NCBI GenBank assembly: GCA_017999915.1
Contig: JAGNKX010000008.1
Span: forward strand, 1-64,000
Source: Spirochaetota bacterium
Lineage (GTDB): Bacteria; Spirochaetota; UBA4802; UBA5550
Length of the DNA stretch: 64,000 nt
Direction: 5' to 3'
Below, piece by piece: positions 2,671-58,329 of the stretch. Position numbers and translations under genes: made by a program. The notes under the pieces are model-generated. The model searched no databases. It saw nothing but the letters and a program-made list of their open reading frames with translations, and was not told the origin of the DNA. Each line of letters starts with the position of its first letter. Within the stretch, counting starts at the first letter, position 1.

Positions 2671-2810
2671 TATAACCCTCCATTTGATTGATAATAATAA
2701 ATAACGATTTTTTGTAGATATGTCAAGAGATATTAAGATTTCCCTGCAAAGACAGGGTTATTTGATAGGTGTATAATTGTAAGCTGTTAGATCATATAAC
2801 ATTGTATGAC

Positions 2811-3021
2811 TAGCAGTTTGCTGAAAAACAGCAAACTGCTAAACGATTCATGGATGTATCGCCATTTTTCGAGGCTCTAGCCGAGAAAAATGTGAGGTTT
2901 TACGAATTCACTTCGTAAAACCGACATGTGCAGGACAGTATGTCCGAATGCCGACGCAGCGCAGGATGTGCTAAAAAGCGTCGGCAAAAACTCCAAGGAG
3001 GGAGTTTTTCAGGAAACTGCC
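2811..3021. repeat. 211-bp element of six consecutive hairpins bounded by an inverted repeat
   Basis: Six perfect or near-perfect inverted repeats follow one another. Their arms are: 2811-2823/2829-2841 (13 bp, AAAAA loop); 2863-2870/2885-2892 with an inner GGCT/AGCC pair; 2896-2906/2912-2922 (11 bp); 2923-2927/2940-2944; 2950-2957/2978-2985 (8 bp); and 2986-2994/3001-3009 (9 bp). The ends also pair over distance: GCAGTTTGCTGAAAAA at 2813-2828 is the reverse complement of 3005-3020 with one mismatch. No coding frame is evident. It resembles a MITE- or BIME-like element, or a structured RNA. Confidence 0.75.
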
Positions 3022-3135
3022 AGTAGATAAATTTCGATTGGGGTATATCCTTCTGGTTCTACGAGTTTATAAATGTAAAAACTTTTTGTGATAATAAAGT
3101 TGATCTACATGCGATTTTTTATTTCAAGGATTAAC

Positions 3136-3176
3136 GGTGTCAGAGTAATATAATATTTTACCGATTGTTATCGGTA
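3136..3176. repeat. GGTGTCAGAGTAA motif next to a 7-bp hairpin
   Basis: GGTGTCAGAGTAA at 3136-3148 repeats the motif at 691 and 1474. It is followed after ten bases by the hairpin TACCGAT-TGTT-ATCGGTA (3159-3176). A short conserved sequence beside a hairpin is the layout of REP units recognised by Y1 transposases. The remainder of 3022-3321 is AT-rich with no other gene-like signal. Confidence 0.45.
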
Positions 3177-3321
3177 GATTTGGCACTTTTTGGGAATTGT
3201 CCATAAACTATTATATAGAAGAAATAGAAATAATTGTTCCGGTCACTGGAAAATTATCTTTTTGGATAGGCCCGCCAATTAATTGCTTGAAATTATGTCC
3301 CATCCTGAAAAGGATAGGGCC

Positions 3322-6300
3322 ATGGATTTTGTGCATCTCCACAATCATACCGACTACTCGATCCTGGACGGCGCCATAACAGTTGACAAGCTGGTAAAAA
3401 AAGCGGCAGAGCTGGGCATGAAGGCCGTGGCCCTGACTGATCATGGCAACATGTTCGGCGCCATCGATTTTTACCAGGCGGCGCGCAAGGCCGGCATCAA
3501 GCCGATCATCGGCGAGGAGTTCTACATGGCGCCGGGACCGCGCACCGTGAAGGAATCGAGCCGGAACAACGGGGAGGAGAAGGCGTACCACCTCATCCTC
3601 CTGGCCCGCAGCGCCAAGGGCTACCGCAACCTCATGAAGCTCTCCTCCATCGGCTACGTCGAGGGCTTCTACTACAAGCCACGTATCGATTTCGAGGTGC
3701 TCGAGCGCCACAGCGAGGGCCTGGTCTGCTCGTCGGCGTGCCTGGGGGGGCAGATACCGTCCCTGATCCTCAGGGGAAAGGACCGGGAGGCGCGGGAGCT
3801 GGCGGGCCGCTTCAGGGAGATATTCGGGAAGGATAATTTTTACCTGGAGCTGCAGTACCACAACATCGCCGAGCAGGAAACCGTGAACAGGGAGCTGGTG
3901 AAGATGGGCGTCGACATGGACATCCCCCTCATCGCCACCAATGATGCCCATTACGTGAACAGGGAGGATGCCCGCTCCCACGAGGTCCTCCTCTGCGTCC
4001 AGACCGGGAAGCTCATGAAGGATACTGACCGCATGAAGTTCCCCTCCGACGAATTCTACTTGAAGTCGGCCGATGAAATGCGCTCCCTCTTCCCTGACTA
4101 TCCCGACGCCATGTTCAACACCCTGAAGATTGCGGAGATGGTCGAGGTGGAGCTGGAGCTGGGCAAGCCGATCCTGCCGCATTTCGAGGTGCCCGACGGC
4201 TTCAACCTGGACACCTACCTGAGGCATCTGGTGGAGAAAGGGGCCGCGGTCCGGTACGGCGGCAGTGTTCCCGACGAGGTTCGCAAGCGTATCGATTACG
4301 AGCTTTCGGTTATCATTAACATGAAATTCTCCGGCTATTTCCTCGTGGTGTGGGACGTCATTAACTACGCGCGCCAGCAGGGTGTGCCGGTGGGACCGGG
4401 ACGCGGCTCCGCCGCCGGTTCCATGGTCTCCTACTGCCTGGGCATAACGGCCCTTGACCCGCTCCGGTACGACCTCCTCTTCGAGCGCTTCCTGAACCCG
4501 GAGCGGAACGAGATGCCTGATATGGACCTCGACTTCTGCGCGGACCGGCGCGGCGAGGTCATCGATTATGTCCGGGCCAAGTACGGCGACGACCACGTGA
4601 GCCAGATCATCACCTTCAATACCATGTCGGCGAAGGCCGTGATCAAGGACGTGGCCCGGGCCATGGACATTCCCTTCACGAAGGCCAACGAGATCAGCAA
4701 GCTCATCGAGGAAAAGGAGCTGGCCAAGTCCCTGGCAAAGTCGAAGGAATTCCAGGCCCTGCACAGGGACCGCGAGTACGGCAAGGACCTCATCGACACG
4801 TCCCTCAGGCTCGAGGGCCTGGTCAGGTCCGCCGGACGCCACGCCGCCGGCATCGTCATATCTCGGGGGCCCCTCACCGACTACGTGCCGCTCTACATGG
4901 ACAAGGACGGCGCCATATCCTCGCAATACGAGAAGAACGCCCTGGAAAAAGCGGGCCTGGTGAAGATGGACTTCCTGGGCCTGAAGAACCTCACCATCAT
5001 CGATAAATGCCTGAAACTCATCAGGGAAACGAAGGGCGAGACCGTGGACATCGACGCGATCCCCCTCGACGATAAAAAGTCGTACGATCTCCTCAAGAAG
5101 GCGGACACCAAGGGCGTGTTCCAGCTTGAAAGCGGCGGCATGCAGACCCTGCTCCGCCGCCTGGGGCCCACCTGCTTCGAGGACATCATCGCCATCGTGG
5201 CGCTCTACCGCCCCGGCCCCCTGAACTCCGGCATGGCCGACGACTTCATCAAGCGGAAGCGGAACCCGAAGCTCGTCGACTATCCCCACAGGAGCCTGGA
5301 GGCGATCCTGAAAGACACCCTCGGCGTGGTCGTCTACCAGGAGCAGGTCATGCGGATCTCCCAGATCATCGCCGGTTTCACCATGCCGGAAGCGGACAAG
5401 CTGCGCAAGGCCATGGGTAAAAAGAACATGGACATCATCAACGCCCTGGAGGATAAGTTCCTGAAGGGGGCGCAGAAGAACGGCATCGACAAGAACCTTG
5501 CCGAGAATCTCTATAACATGATCAAGAAGTTCGGCGAGTACGGCTTCAACAAGTCCCACTCGGCCGCCTACGCCCTGGTGGCCTACCAGACAGCTTTCCT
5601 GAAGGCGCACTATCCCCTGCAGTACATGACCTCCCTCCTGTCGGCCCAGCCGGACCGCCAGGACGACGTGATCCAGTACATCAACGACTGCCGCGCCAAC
5701 GGCATCGACGTGCTGCCGCCGTCGGTGAACCGGAGCGACTACGACTTCACCATCGAGGGGAAGTCGATCCGCTTCGGCCTCTCCGCGATCAAGGGCGTGG
5801 GCTCAAAGGCCATCGAGTCGATCGTGGCTGCCCGGAAGCGGGCGGGGAACTTCGACTCCCTCAAGGACTTCCTCGAGAACATCGACTCCCTCACGGTGAA
5901 CAAGGGCGTGCTGGAATCCCTCATCAAGGCCGGCGCCATGGACTGTCTCCACGAGAACCGGGCCCAGCTTTTCGCCTCTATCGACATCCTCCTCGAGGCG
6001 GGTCGCCGCCTCCAGGAGGACCGGGCCTCCGGCCAGGGTAACCTTTTCGGCGGAGAGCAGGCCGCCGCCGCGGGAGCCGGCGTCCACGTGGATCTCCTCT
6101 CCATACCGGAATGGCACGACAACGAGAAGCTCTCCCATGAAAAGGAGGTCCTGGGGCTCTACATATCGAGCCATCCCCTGGCGAAGTTCGAGAAGGAGAT
6201 ACGAATGTTTTCCTCTGTCTCCCTGTCGAATCTCTCCGAGGAGCACAACGGCAGGAGCGTCTCCGTCGTGGGTATCCTCACGAACCTCCAGGTGAAGCGG

Positions 6301-6765
6301 GCCCAGAAGACCGGGAAGCGCTACGCCCTTGCGGAGCTGGAGGACATGGACAGCTCCGTCGAGGTCATCATCTTCGAGAAGGTGCTCTCCAGGCACGAGC
6401 AGCTCGTCATGAGCGGCGCGCCCCTCATGGTCACCGGCACCATCGAGGCGGAGAGCGACACCCTGATGAAGCTCATCGCCACTGCCGTGAAGTCGTTGAA
6501 GGAGGTGCGGCAGGAGTCGATATCGGCCCTGCATATTCGCCTCGACGCCATCGGCGTGGACGACGATATTCTCAAGACCATGGAAGCGATCTTCACCCGC
6601 CACAAGGGGGACTGCCCCATCTTCTTCCACGTCAACGCCCGGGAAGGGGAGAAGATCATCAAGGCCCATGCGACCTTCAACGTGAAGCCCACGGACGGCC
6701 TGGTGAAGGACCTGTCGCAGATCGTCGGTCAGGACTCCCTCGGCTTTTCCATCAGCCACCATTAG
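3322..6765 (+). CDS. dnaE: DNA polymerase III alpha subunit
   Basis: Replicative polymerase, 1147 aa, normal length for DnaE1. The PHP domain opens the protein (VHLHNHTDYS at residues 4-13). The palm carries catalytic Asp400 and Asp402 in PDMDLDF and Asp550 in KMDFLGLKNL, matching E. coli D401, D403 and D555. The RPGPLNSGM and GPGRGSAAGS signatures are present, followed by a helix-hairpin-helix and an OB-fold near residues 950-1040. The ATG at 3322 is preferred: AAGGA lies 7 bases upstream, and it gives the usual short lead before the PHP histidines. An upstream ATG at 3295 lacks a ribosome site. Transcribed alone. Confidence 0.97.
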   Translation: MDFVHLHNHTDYSILDGAITVDKLVKKAAELGMKAVALTDHGNMFGAIDFYQAARKAGIKPIIGEEFYMAPGPRTVKESSRNNGEEKAYHLILLARSAKGYRNLMKLSSIGYVEGFYYKPRIDFEVLERHSEGLVCSSACLGGQIPSLILRGKDREARELAGRFREIFGKDNFYLELQYHNIAEQETVNRELVKMGVDMDIPLIATNDAHYVNREDARSHEVLLCVQTGKLMKDTDRMKFPSDEFYLKSADEMRSLFPDYPDAMFNTLKIAEMVEVELELGKPILPHFEVPDGFNLDTYLRHLVEKGAAVRYGGSVPDEVRKRIDYELSVIINMKFSGYFLVVWDVINYARQQGVPVGPGRGSAAGSMVSYCLGITALDPLRYDLLFERFLNPERNEMPDMDLDFCADRRGEVIDYVRAKYGDDHVSQIITFNTMSAKAVIKDVARAMDIPFTKANEISKLIEEKELAKSLAKSKEFQALHRDREYGKDLIDTSLRLEGLVRSAGRHAAGIVISRGPLTDYVPLYMDKDGAISSQYEKNALEKAGLVKMDFLGLKNLTIIDKCLKLIRETKGETVDIDAIPLDDKKSYDLLKKADTKGVFQLESGGMQTLLRRLGPTCFEDIIAIVALYRPGPLNSGMADDFIKRKRNPKLVDYPHRSLEAILKDTLGVVVYQEQVMRISQIIAGFTMPEADKLRKAMGKKNMDIINALEDKFLKGAQKNGIDKNLAENLYNMIKKFGEYGFNKSHSAAYALVAYQTAFLKAHYPLQYMTSLLSAQPDRQDDVIQYINDCRANGIDVLPPSVNRSDYDFTIEGKSIRFGLSAIKGVGSKAIESIVAARKRAGNFDSLKDFLENIDSLTVNKGVLESLIKAGAMDCLHENRAQLFASIDILLEAGRRLQEDRASGQGNLFGGEQAAAAGAGVHVDLLSIPEWHDNEKLSHEKEVLGLYISSHPLAKFEKEIRMFSSVSLSNLSEEHNGRSVSVVGILTNLQVKRAQKTGKRYALAELEDMDSSVEVIIFEKVLSRHEQLVMSGAPLMVTGTIEAESDTLMKLIATAVKSLKEVRQESISALHIRLDAIGVDDDILKTMEAIFTRHKGDCPIFFHVNAREGEKIIKAHATFNVKPTDGLVKDLSQIVGQDSLGFSISHH

Positions 6766-38977: not shown

Positions 38978-40339
38978 ATGAATTACCTGGGAGAATATTC
39001 GAGAAAGCTGACATCGGCCGAGAACGCCGTCCGCGTTGTCCGGTCCGGCAACTGGGTCGACTACGGGCATTTCGCCTGCGCGCCGACCTTCCTGGACCGG
39101 TACCTGGCCAAGCGCGTGGACGACCTCAGGGACGTCAAGATACGGGCCGTATCCTTCCCGGGCCTTCCGGCCGTGGTCACCGCGGACCCGACCCGCGAGC
39201 GCTTCATCTACAACAACTGGCATTTCAGCGGGGCTGACCGCAAGCTCCACGACGGCGGCCTGTGCAATTACATACCCCTGAACTACCACGAGGGTCCGTT
39301 CCTCTACGATCATATAGAAACGGACGTCTTCATGGTGAAGGTCACTCCCATGGACAGGCACGGGTACTTCAACTTCGGACCGTCGAATTCCATCTCCAAG
39401 CGCATCGCCGACAGGGCGCGAATCGTCATTGTCGAGGTCAACGAAACCGTCCCCTGCTGCTACGGCGGCCACAACGAGGGGATACACATTTCGGAGGTGG
39501 ATTACATCGTCGAATCCGACAACCGGCCCCTGATCTCCCTGCCGTCCCTGCAGCCCTCCGAGGTCGACAGGGCCATAGCGGAGCGCATCGTGGCGGAGAT
39601 CGAGGACGGCTCCTGCATCCAGCTCGGCATAGGCGGCATGCCCAATGCCGTGGGAATGATGATAGCGCAGTCCGATATCAAGGACCTGGGGGTCCACACG
39701 GAGATGCTGGCTGACTCCTACGTCGACATGTACGAGTCAGGAAGGATAACCAACAGTAAAAAAGGCATTTACCCTGGACGCATGGCCTATACCTTCGCCC
39801 TGGGAAGCCAGAGGCTCTACGATTTTCTAGATCACAACCCGGCCTGCGCCTCCTATTCCGTGGACCTGACCAACAACCCGGAACTCATCGCACTGAATGA
39901 CAGGATGGTGGCGATCAACAACGCGGTGGAGGTCGACCTGTACAGCCAGGTCTCGTCAGAGTCGATGGGGAAGCGGCAGATATCGGGGACCGGCGGCCAG
40001 TTCGATTACATCTTCGGGGCCTATCATTCGAACGGCGGCAAGGGCTTCATCTGCATCTCCTCCACCAAGGTGGACAAGAACGGGAACCGCAAATCGAGGA
40101 TCAGGCCCTTCCTGGAGCCGGGCACGGTCGTGACGATCCCCCGGACCATCGTCCACTACGTGGTGACGGAATACGGGACCGCCATGCTCAAGGGAAAATC
40201 CACCTGGGAGCGGGCCGAGGCGCTTATCAATATCGCCCATCCGGATTTCAGGGACGAGCTGATCGCAGAGGCGGAAAAAATGGGCCTCTGGACCAGGAGC
40301 AACAAACTTGAAATGACCCAATCCCTCATGAGCGCGTAG
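38978..40339 (+). CDS. acetyl-CoA hydrolase/transferase family (butyryl- or 4-hydroxybutyryl-CoA:acetate CoA-transferase)
   Basis: 453 aa, family I CoA-transferase of the AtoX/Cat1/AbfT class. An N-terminal AcetylCoA_hydro domain includes [23 protein letters not shown]; the C-terminal half holds [18 protein letters not shown] (the catalytic Glu), GTGGQFDYI and the CoA-binding [17 protein letters not shown], with a closing [13 protein letters not shown]. It moves CoA from butyryl- or 4-hydroxybutyryl-CoA to acetate (or the reverse), so it could conserve energy during fermentation. GGAGGAGGGGCC precedes the ATG. Exact acyl substrate undecided. Confidence 0.85.
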
Positions 40340-40435
40340 CGCCGATACCGCTTGCTGAAAGCGTTTAATAGTTTGCCTGGGGGGCAGGATGCCGGCGGGG
40401 GGTCCTCCCCCCCTTTTTTTTCTTCCGGTAAGATT

Positions 40436-40685
40436 CCCTCACCCGCCCCTCCGGGGCACGCCGAGCGCTTTTTGGCCATCCTGGCCGCGCTGGGAGCGGT
40501 CAGGATGGCCGCCTGCAGACGCGGGACATGGATGTCCTGAATGCGTCTGCCACTGAAACGTCCTGTTCGGCGCCTCTCCCATTAAGTTTGGGAAAAAGGA
40601 GAGGGTTTCTATAAGAAAAATATCATGGGCATACCCCCCCTCTCCTTTCTTCAATTTTTAATGGGAGAGGGGCTGGGGGTGAGGG
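40436..40685. repeat. intergenic inverted-repeat copy with an internal hairpin insert
   Basis: CCCTCACCCGCCCCTCC opens at 40436. CCTCTCCCATT with GGAGAGGG (40573-40605) and CTCTCC...AATGGGAGAGG (40640-40671) form the family core, closing in GGGGGTGAGGG (40675-40685). Between the opening and the core is an extra segment with GGCCATCCTG (40474-40483) paired to CAGGATGGCC (40501-40510) and GCAGACGC (40514-40521) to GCGTCTGC (40543-40550). The insert may be a separate element. Confidence 0.65.
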
Positions 40686-40767
40686 CATAAGTATCAGTTG
40701 ATGAACGAAAATCTCTTGACAAAAACCCTCCATGGAAATCTATGTACAGGAGTTCCATTGGCGCCGT

Positions 40768-57348: not shown

Positions 57349-57442
57349 TCAAAAAAGATGTCTCATAAATACTGCTGATTAGAAAGCGGGAGGATCATCC
57401 TTCCCTTTTTTATACCCGCGTCAGGGATGACGCGGGAGGCGT

Positions 57443-57568
57443 ACCCTCATCCCCCGGCCCCTTCTCCCATTTAGAATGGTAGAAAGGAGAAGGGGGGCGT
57501 TGAAAAAGTCGTTAAAGCGGAAACCCTCTCCTTTTTAAGGAGAGGGTGCGCGGAGCGCGGGTGAGGGT
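57443..57568. repeat. nested intergenic inverted repeat (family copy)
   Basis: ACCCTCATCCCCCGGCCCCT opens, and GCGGGTGAGGGT closes. CCTTCTCCCATT, GAAAGGAGAAGG, CCCTCTCCTTTT and AAGGAGAGGG lie in between, in the order of the copy at 14262. Confidence 0.72.
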
Positions 57569-57573
57569 AAAAC

Positions 57574-57760
57574 ATCCGCCCGCAGGGCGGATACTGATAG
57601 GCGATTGTTGTCTGAGGCTGCACAGAGCGAAGCGAATGCAGCCGAGTTAATCGCCAAGCCCGTCGCGGCGTTTGAGCGACCGGGAGGGAGGAGCGCGAGG
57701 CCGCCTTTATCTCGACTTCCTGTCGAGTGGCGGCAGGCGGGCTTCCTGCCCGCTCGATGT
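57574..57760. repeat. second hairpin-rich intergenic element
   Basis: Consecutive inverted repeats: ATCCGCCC/GGGCGGAT (57574-57581/57585-57592), GGCGATT/AATCGCC (57600-57606/57649-57655) enclosing GGCTGCA/TGCAGCC (57616-57622/57637-57643), CTCGAC/GTCGAG (57711-57716/57722-57727), and GCGGGC/GCCCGC (57737-57742/57748-57753). It is similar in style, not in sequence, to the element at 2811. Confidence 0.5.
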
Positions 57761-57795
57761 CGGCCGCGAAGGCCTTCATCCTCGCAAAAAATAAC

Positions 57796-58329
57796 CTACT
57801 CATATTTTGTCTTTTCCAGATTCTTCAACCGCGTCCGCTCCCCGAAATTTTCCAGTGAGAGGAGGTGCCGCTCGGCGCGGAAAACGATGGCGAAGCCGCA
57901 GAGGAACACGCAGTTGCGGAGGATGAGCCAGGGAGTGACGTTCTCGGAGATGTTGATGCCCAGGAGCCCCAGCTGGAAGCAGCCGCACTCGAAGCTCCGG
58001 CCCCGGGCCACGTTGACCGATATGAAGGCGATGAAGGCGGTCATGAGGAGGAAGGCGACGGCCGCGGAGGCCCGCACCTTGACGCCGATGAGAAGGCAGA
58101 GCCCCAGGATCAGCTCCAGCGACGGAACGTATGAGGCGGCGTAGGGGACCAGCGCCTCCGGGAGAATGTCATAGCGGGCCACGATGAGCCCGAAGGACGC
58201 CGGGTCTGTCAGCTTGACCGCGCCGGTGAAGGCCAGCATGGCCCCGAGGGCTACCCGTAGTATCACCGTGACCCTGTTGCCGTAGAGGGCGCCATTCAGG
58301 GCCTTCCTGAGGCCGCTTTCATTTCCCAT
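57796..58329 (-). CDS. MauE/DoxX-like membrane protein, 177 aa
   Basis: Four membrane helices with the MauE/DoxX layout: ILRVALGAMLAFTGAVKLTDPASFGLIVARYDILPEALVPYAASYVPSLELILGLCLLIGVKVRASAAVAFLLMTAFIAFISVNVARG, then CGCFQ near the third to fourth loop. MauE-type proteins help form or transfer disulfides for periplasmic partners. Here the adjacent rhodanese-domain protein hints at sulfur or thiol chemistry. Its start overlaps the rhodanese gene by 11 bp. Confidence 0.83.
   Translation of the reverse strand: MGNESGLRKALNGALYGNRVTVILRVALGAMLAFTGAVKLTDPASFGLIVARYDILPEALVPYAASYVPSLELILGLCLLIGVKVRASAAVAFLLMTAFIAFISVNVARGRSFECGCFQLGLLGINISENVTPWLILRNCVFLCGFAIVFRAERHLLSLENFGERTRLKNLEKTKYE

Follow-up and report, generated by a model that had tools for sequence, protein, structure and literature searches.

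What kind of sequence forms a dense run of hairpins between two genes of a spirochaete, and does it act as DNA or as RNA? This question is raised by positions 2811–3021 of the window, by which we mean the whole 64,000-nt stretch of DNA analyzed here. A preliminary description had reported six hairpins closed by an inverted repeat, regarded them as non-coding and beyond chance, and left open whether they are a mobile element of the MITE/BIME kind or an RNA with several hairpins. The segment is indeed intergenic, lying between a MORN-repeat open reading frame (2182–2670, − strand) and dnaE (3283–6765, + strand). Its fold is far more stable than that of shuffled sequences (z = −9.39 as RNA and −11.0 as DNA), none of 200 shuffles folded equally well, and the outer arms (2809–2829 and 3004–3024) are 90% complementary over 21 nt, which bears out both the inverted repeat and the departure from chance. 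The hairpins are real as well, but form seven units rather than six (Table 1). In the window copy, the stem of HP2 is weakened and the GGA of HP5 is lost; HP6 is a hairpin within a hairpin, and HP7 resembles a terminator in its A5/T5 flanks. No promoter was found as part of the repeated element.

Table 1. Features of the hairpin element and further copies of its module, in window coordinates
Feature	Position	Strand	Basis
MITE body, long form, 206 bp without target duplication	2814–3019	+	Alignment with 20 further genome copies; ends set by target duplications and the rimP–nusA empty site
Left target duplication CTAG	2810–2813	.	Left/right 4-mer correlation across 39 copies
Right target duplication CCAG, one mismatch to the left	3020–3023	.	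4-mer correlation
Left terminal inverted repeat CAGTTTGCTGAAAAAC	2814–2829	+	Copy alignment, inverted-repeat calls
Right terminal inverted repeat, CAGTTTCCTGAAAAAC on the − strand	3004–3019	−	Also bounds the IS5 remnant in L205
HP1, 13-bp perfect stem of the left end and its internal copy	2811–2841	+	
HP2, CsrA-type hairpin, consensus GAUACAUGGAUGUAUC, GGA at 2852–2854	2844–2861	+	
HP3, stem with variable loop lacking GGA (internal control)	2863–2892	+	
HP4, 11-bp stem GGTTTTACGAA/TTCGTAAAACC	2896–2922	+	
Module M, two CAGGANG hairpins	2929–2985	+	Covariance models R1 and R2
HP5, first hairpin of M, loop here CAGTATG	2933–2945	+	
HP6, second hairpin of M, loop CAGGATG, GGA at 2964–2966	2949–2986	+	
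HP7, AAAAACTCC-AAGGAG-GGAGTTTTT, CsrA-type hexaloop, GGA at 2997–2999	2986–3009	+	
Module M copy in a different repeat	40494–40550	+	
Module M copy in a different repeat	57700–57755	−	

Genome comparisons, all of which involved draft assemblies, revealed that the element is present in two main forms. The own genome contains five long copies (~209 bp, 93–100% identity) and 16 short copies (~160 bp), which lack positions 116–175 and are 90–97% identical across the first 115 bp, together with smaller pieces, the smallest being a 50-bp palindrome of both ends. Both forms also occur in a congener, G004, which carries about 20 copies with up to 89% identity, and matches in three further congeners, and in a few genomes beyond the genus, are fewer or merely partial. 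Across 39 copies, the left and right flanking 4-mers agree at 125 of 156 positions compared with 115 after shuffling (permutation p = 2e-4), with matched pairs such as ATAG/ATAG, CTAG/CTAG, and TTAA/TTAA. Since HP1 takes in part of the duplication in most copies, these statistics alone cannot separate 3 from 4 bp; the length of 4 bp follows from an empty site between rimP and nusA. There, the congener G001 carries a 96-bp copy in the order rimP–TTAG–element–TTAG–nusA, G005 has a single TTAG and no element, and the own genome (G000), G002, G003, and G004 have TTAA, no element, and 14–18 bp between the genes. This occupied site, set against five species without the element, demonstrates mobility and supplies the empty site that the preliminary description had suggested looking for.

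The same comparisons link the element to the IS5 family. Ends of the type CAGTTTSCTGAAAAAC/CAGTTTCCTGAAAAAC bound a 0.5-kb element in G003, a decayed remnant in which the C-terminal part of an IS5-family transposase is recognizable (NF033581, E = 4e-11). IS5 is known to duplicate the target motif YTAR (PMC10359306), which the duplications found here fit. An intact IS5 partner was not found in 20 genomes of the family, searched both by end pattern and by protein. Three contigs of a further genome (C26, C29, and C33 of G018; L202–L204) end at CAGTTTCCTGAAAAACTAAGT beside TTAA or TTAG, and these breaks probably mark an IS that shares these ends, is present in several copies, and is perhaps intact. 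Positions 2814–3019 are thus a MITE, or non-autonomous transposon, whose ends are of the IS5 type and whose YTAR duplications span 4 bp; it has entered many intergenic sites of its own spirochaete and its relatives. Like IS5-group MITEs, it is short, non-coding, and multi-copy, has terminal inverted repeats and a 4-bp YTAR duplication, and shares its ends with an IS5-type transposase remnant in a congener. It differs from them in its series of CsrA-type hairpins, in an exchangeable two-hairpin module, and in the lack of a detected intact partner.

This module, M, has a distribution of its own. Within the MITE it is confined to the long form, but it is also found alone elsewhere, in repeats with quite different flanks, and it recurs twice in the window (Table 1), contrary to the earlier statement that the element has no obvious relative there. 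Around those two copies (40261–40740 and 57361–57840), the window contains composite palindromic repeats built on CCCTCTCC...GGGAGAGG and GGGTGAGGG arms, in which the M copies are embedded. A covariance model (R1) matched 62 sites in the own genome (E up to 0.01) and was found in 29 of the 46 genomes of the order, with few matches elsewhere in the phylum; the E-values of these models are rough. Standard pairs fill 96.9% of the pair cells among 69 distinct sequences, compared with 67.3% after shuffling, the covariation score is 0.669 compared with 0.153 ± 0.011, and the C–G pair closing the first loop is invariant. A single unique copy without conserved stems, which would have refuted the preliminary description, is excluded. 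A small ORF beginning in the M spacer (AATG/AGTG) was considered and discarded, as that position can also read CTG.

The most constrained part of M is the core of its two loops, which lie ~26 nt apart. Counted within near-identical subfamilies of the own genome, the core has 0.017 changes per site, the stem 0.155, the linker 0.169, and N 0.70. The CAGGA.G cores have two changes where 19 are expected (p = 1e-6; for N, p = 5e-7), with expected counts that assume independent sites; the core changes observed all fall in the transposon-borne group. A protein that recognizes CAGGA.G in a hairpin, whatever base stands at N, would be expected to leave such a pattern. The pattern is not an artefact of the first model, an explanation ruled out by a second model with randomized loops (R2): in 14 of its 16 matches in 864 kb (E < 1e-4), each of the two loops still reads CA(N)GGANG; the exceptions are the window copy and L189:3312, where at least one loop no longer does. 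This loop-blind search of 864 kb revealed no well-scoring M family with another loop.

Four hairpins of the MITE present CANGGANG or CAGGANG in the loop on the + strand, namely HP2 (ACANGGANGU), HP7 (CCANGGANGG), and the two hairpins of M, HP5 and HP6 (CAGGANG). The N bases of HP2, HP7, and both module loops differ among copies, and within the same element neither the sequence nor the length of the HP3 loop is constant. Judged by their letters, these loops match the recognition motif of CsrA/RsmE, which gives content to the RNA half of the earlier proposal. CsrB repeats carry CAGGA(U/A/C)G in their loops, and the CsrA SELEX consensus RUACARGGAUGU places GGA in a mostly 6-nt loop (PMC7652899); HP2, as AUACAUGGAUGU, matches this consensus at 11 of 12 positions. 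Binding to a GGA hexaloop is also documented for a spirochaete CsrA, that of Leptospira, in flaB leaders (PMC8668096), where the site lies in an mRNA leader, whereas the element is a dispersed repeat. An unbiased scan of all hairpins with a 5-nt loop and a stem of at least 5 bp in 864 kb ranked AGGAN first of 256 pentaloop classes (50 compared with 16.6 expected), and according to hexamer-based gene calls these hairpins are concentrated between genes. As a separate observation, the 7-mer CAGGANG occurs 103 times on both strands of the window, mostly outside repeats, compared with 39 expected from dinucleotide shuffles; this excess may reflect merely codon use.

A potential reader of the loops is encoded in the same genome, which contains one csrA, adjoining fliW, with the RNA-contact residues L4 and R44 present. 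Within the order, csrA was found in 42 of 46 genomes, and many genomes with CsrA have few or no modules. In one genus, two genomes without a csrA match (G032 and G042) have no module matches and three with csrA (G023, G043, and G044) have three to five, a pattern seen in five genomes that are too few and partly incomplete.

Among the closest known systems are also the sponge RNAs CsrB/CsrC and RsmX/Y/Z (Rfam clan CL00106), with which the element shares repeated hairpins and CAGGANG or ANGGAN loops, a host CsrA, and, in module M, conserved loops on covarying stems. Those RNAs, however, are products of single-copy genes with their own promoters and were described in Gammaproteobacteria, whereas the element has two to four sites per unit and tens of copies per genome, lies partly on transposons, and has no Rfam match: a search at gathering level found none, one at E = 5 gave nothing credible, and the RsmY model scored 15.6 bits against a cut-off of 57. 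We therefore describe it as working like a CsrA sponge RNA without classing it as one, given that the Rfam models did not match and that expression and binding are inferred. TwoAYGGAY RNA (RF01731) and Bacillaceae-1 (RF01690), for which CsrA binding was proposed by motif (PMC4333381), are likewise unvalidated structured RNAs with paired GGA loops from outside Gammaproteobacteria. Their architecture differs from that of the element, and neither model matched the window region even at E = 5. REP/BIME sequences are similar as dispersed intergenic palindromes with covarying stems, but in module M the loop core is the most conserved part; REP loops are not known to be kept.

The reading that we prefer, with a probability of about 0.58, is an IS5-type MITE that carries CsrA-binding hairpins; its transcription and its binding by CsrA are inferred in the absence of transcript or binding data. 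A copy would be transcribed from an outside promoter, proposed because the element contains none, and each host CsrA dimer would bind two GGA loops of the transcript, as in CsrB/RsmZ, so that one module M could occupy both binding faces of one dimer. The copies may titrate CsrA, or they may equip the leaders and tails of neighboring mRNAs with CsrA sites, and the MITE might gain by carrying a structure that the host keeps. A role in mRNA leaders does not predict copies in both orientations to neighboring genes, and both orientations are found: M copies comprise 17 sense, 13 antisense, 19 divergent, and five convergent cases without significant bias. For MITE copies of the own genome and G004, divergent regions are enriched (19 pairs) and convergent ones nearly empty (one pair), and tandem regions have no clear sense bias; these counts rest on hexamer-based gene calls. 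Also weighing against the preferred reading are the many genomes of the order that have CsrA with few or no modules, and the window copy, with its lost GGA loop and its weakened stem in another hairpin.

The absence of an orientation bias fits a plain IS5-type MITE accompanied by dispersed palindromes without any RNA function, in which a DNA-level process keeps the GGA loops, for example because they are needed by a transposase, or by some other protein, in binding single-stranded hairpins once these are extruded. We consider this explanation unlikely, although it cannot be set aside. Mismatches in M stems comprise 16 G–U and 14 A–C, hence no + strand RNA signature, and because of this a DNA-level reason for the loop is not excluded; in the MITE stems the G–U excess is weak (HP2 pair counts for G004 copies were left out, being out of register in the MAFFT alignment). 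The stems are near-perfect Watson–Crick with fast turnover, like self-correcting DNA palindromes, and in recent MITE copies the GGA core is no more constrained than the rest (~0.33 change types per site, compared with ~0.40 elsewhere and ~1.36 at N). What a plain MITE leaves unexplained is that different repeat families carry this loop motif on stems unrelated to one another and that the free and fixed loop positions are exactly those of CsrA sites. Moreover, no candidate for a DNA-hairpin enzyme is linked to the repeats, Y1 genes have no module nearby, and IS5-type transposases act on double-stranded ends.

It is improbable that the stems alone act, as a bidirectional terminator or an mRNA-stabilizing, BIME-like hairpin cluster. 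The terminator-like flanks of HP7 and the intergenic position of the copies are in line with such a role, but it does not account for fixed GGA cores with a free N, and the MITE is depleted at convergent gene ends, where terminators are expected. A REP/BIME element moved by a Y1 (RAYT-type) transposase, suggested by six Y1_Tnp genes in the genome and by the hairpin-rich anatomy, is hardly tenable and was rejected, as it is contradicted by the 4-bp target duplications at an empty site, by terminal inverted repeats shared with the IS5 remnant, and by the Y1 genes themselves, none of the six having a module within 1.5 kb (0/6). Y1 enzymes make no target duplications. Of the earlier alternatives, the MITE thus stands on its copies, inverted ends, duplications, empty site, and IS5-type remnant, and the Y1 connection falls; the supposed Y1 remnant near the element, an open frame at 1–257, has no Pfam or NCBIfam match. 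By eye, this frame resembles the end of a Y1/RAYT-type transposase.

If a MITE with CsrA-binding hairpins is the correct reading, mobile DNA would directly spread sites recognized by a global regulator; the paired CsrA-type loops number dozens per genome, and some of them lie on a transposon whose empty site is demonstrated. Jumping DNA may therefore scatter the binding sites of CsrA, for which a bench test is lacking. RNAs that antagonize CsrA are well studied in Gammaproteobacteria, and their occurrence elsewhere is an open question (PMC4333381, PMC8668096). In the open-licence literature, we found no validated CsrA-antagonist RNA in this spirochaete order and no earlier report that joins CsrA with REP, MITE, or sponge. 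More tentatively, and with the odds somewhat against it, CsrA might be controlled or rewired across the order by structured repeats that are spread genome-wide and have paired CsrA sites, partly carried by transposons, as a mobile multi-copy counterpart of CsrB.

Two further features were seen beside these families. The sequence GGTGTCAGAGTA occurs four times in the window where 0.12 is expected, one occurrence having a mismatch; three lie near the left window end (691–702 and 1474–1485 on the + strand, 1757–1768 on the − strand) and one just right of the element (3136–3147, + strand), and it looks like another dispersed repeat. Elsewhere in the own genome (L183, 17017–17117; contig C3, about 257017–257117), a CAGGATG hairpin and a CATGGATG hairpin are adjacent and enclosed by a long stem, and this pair is a candidate for a compact two-site RNA outside both families.
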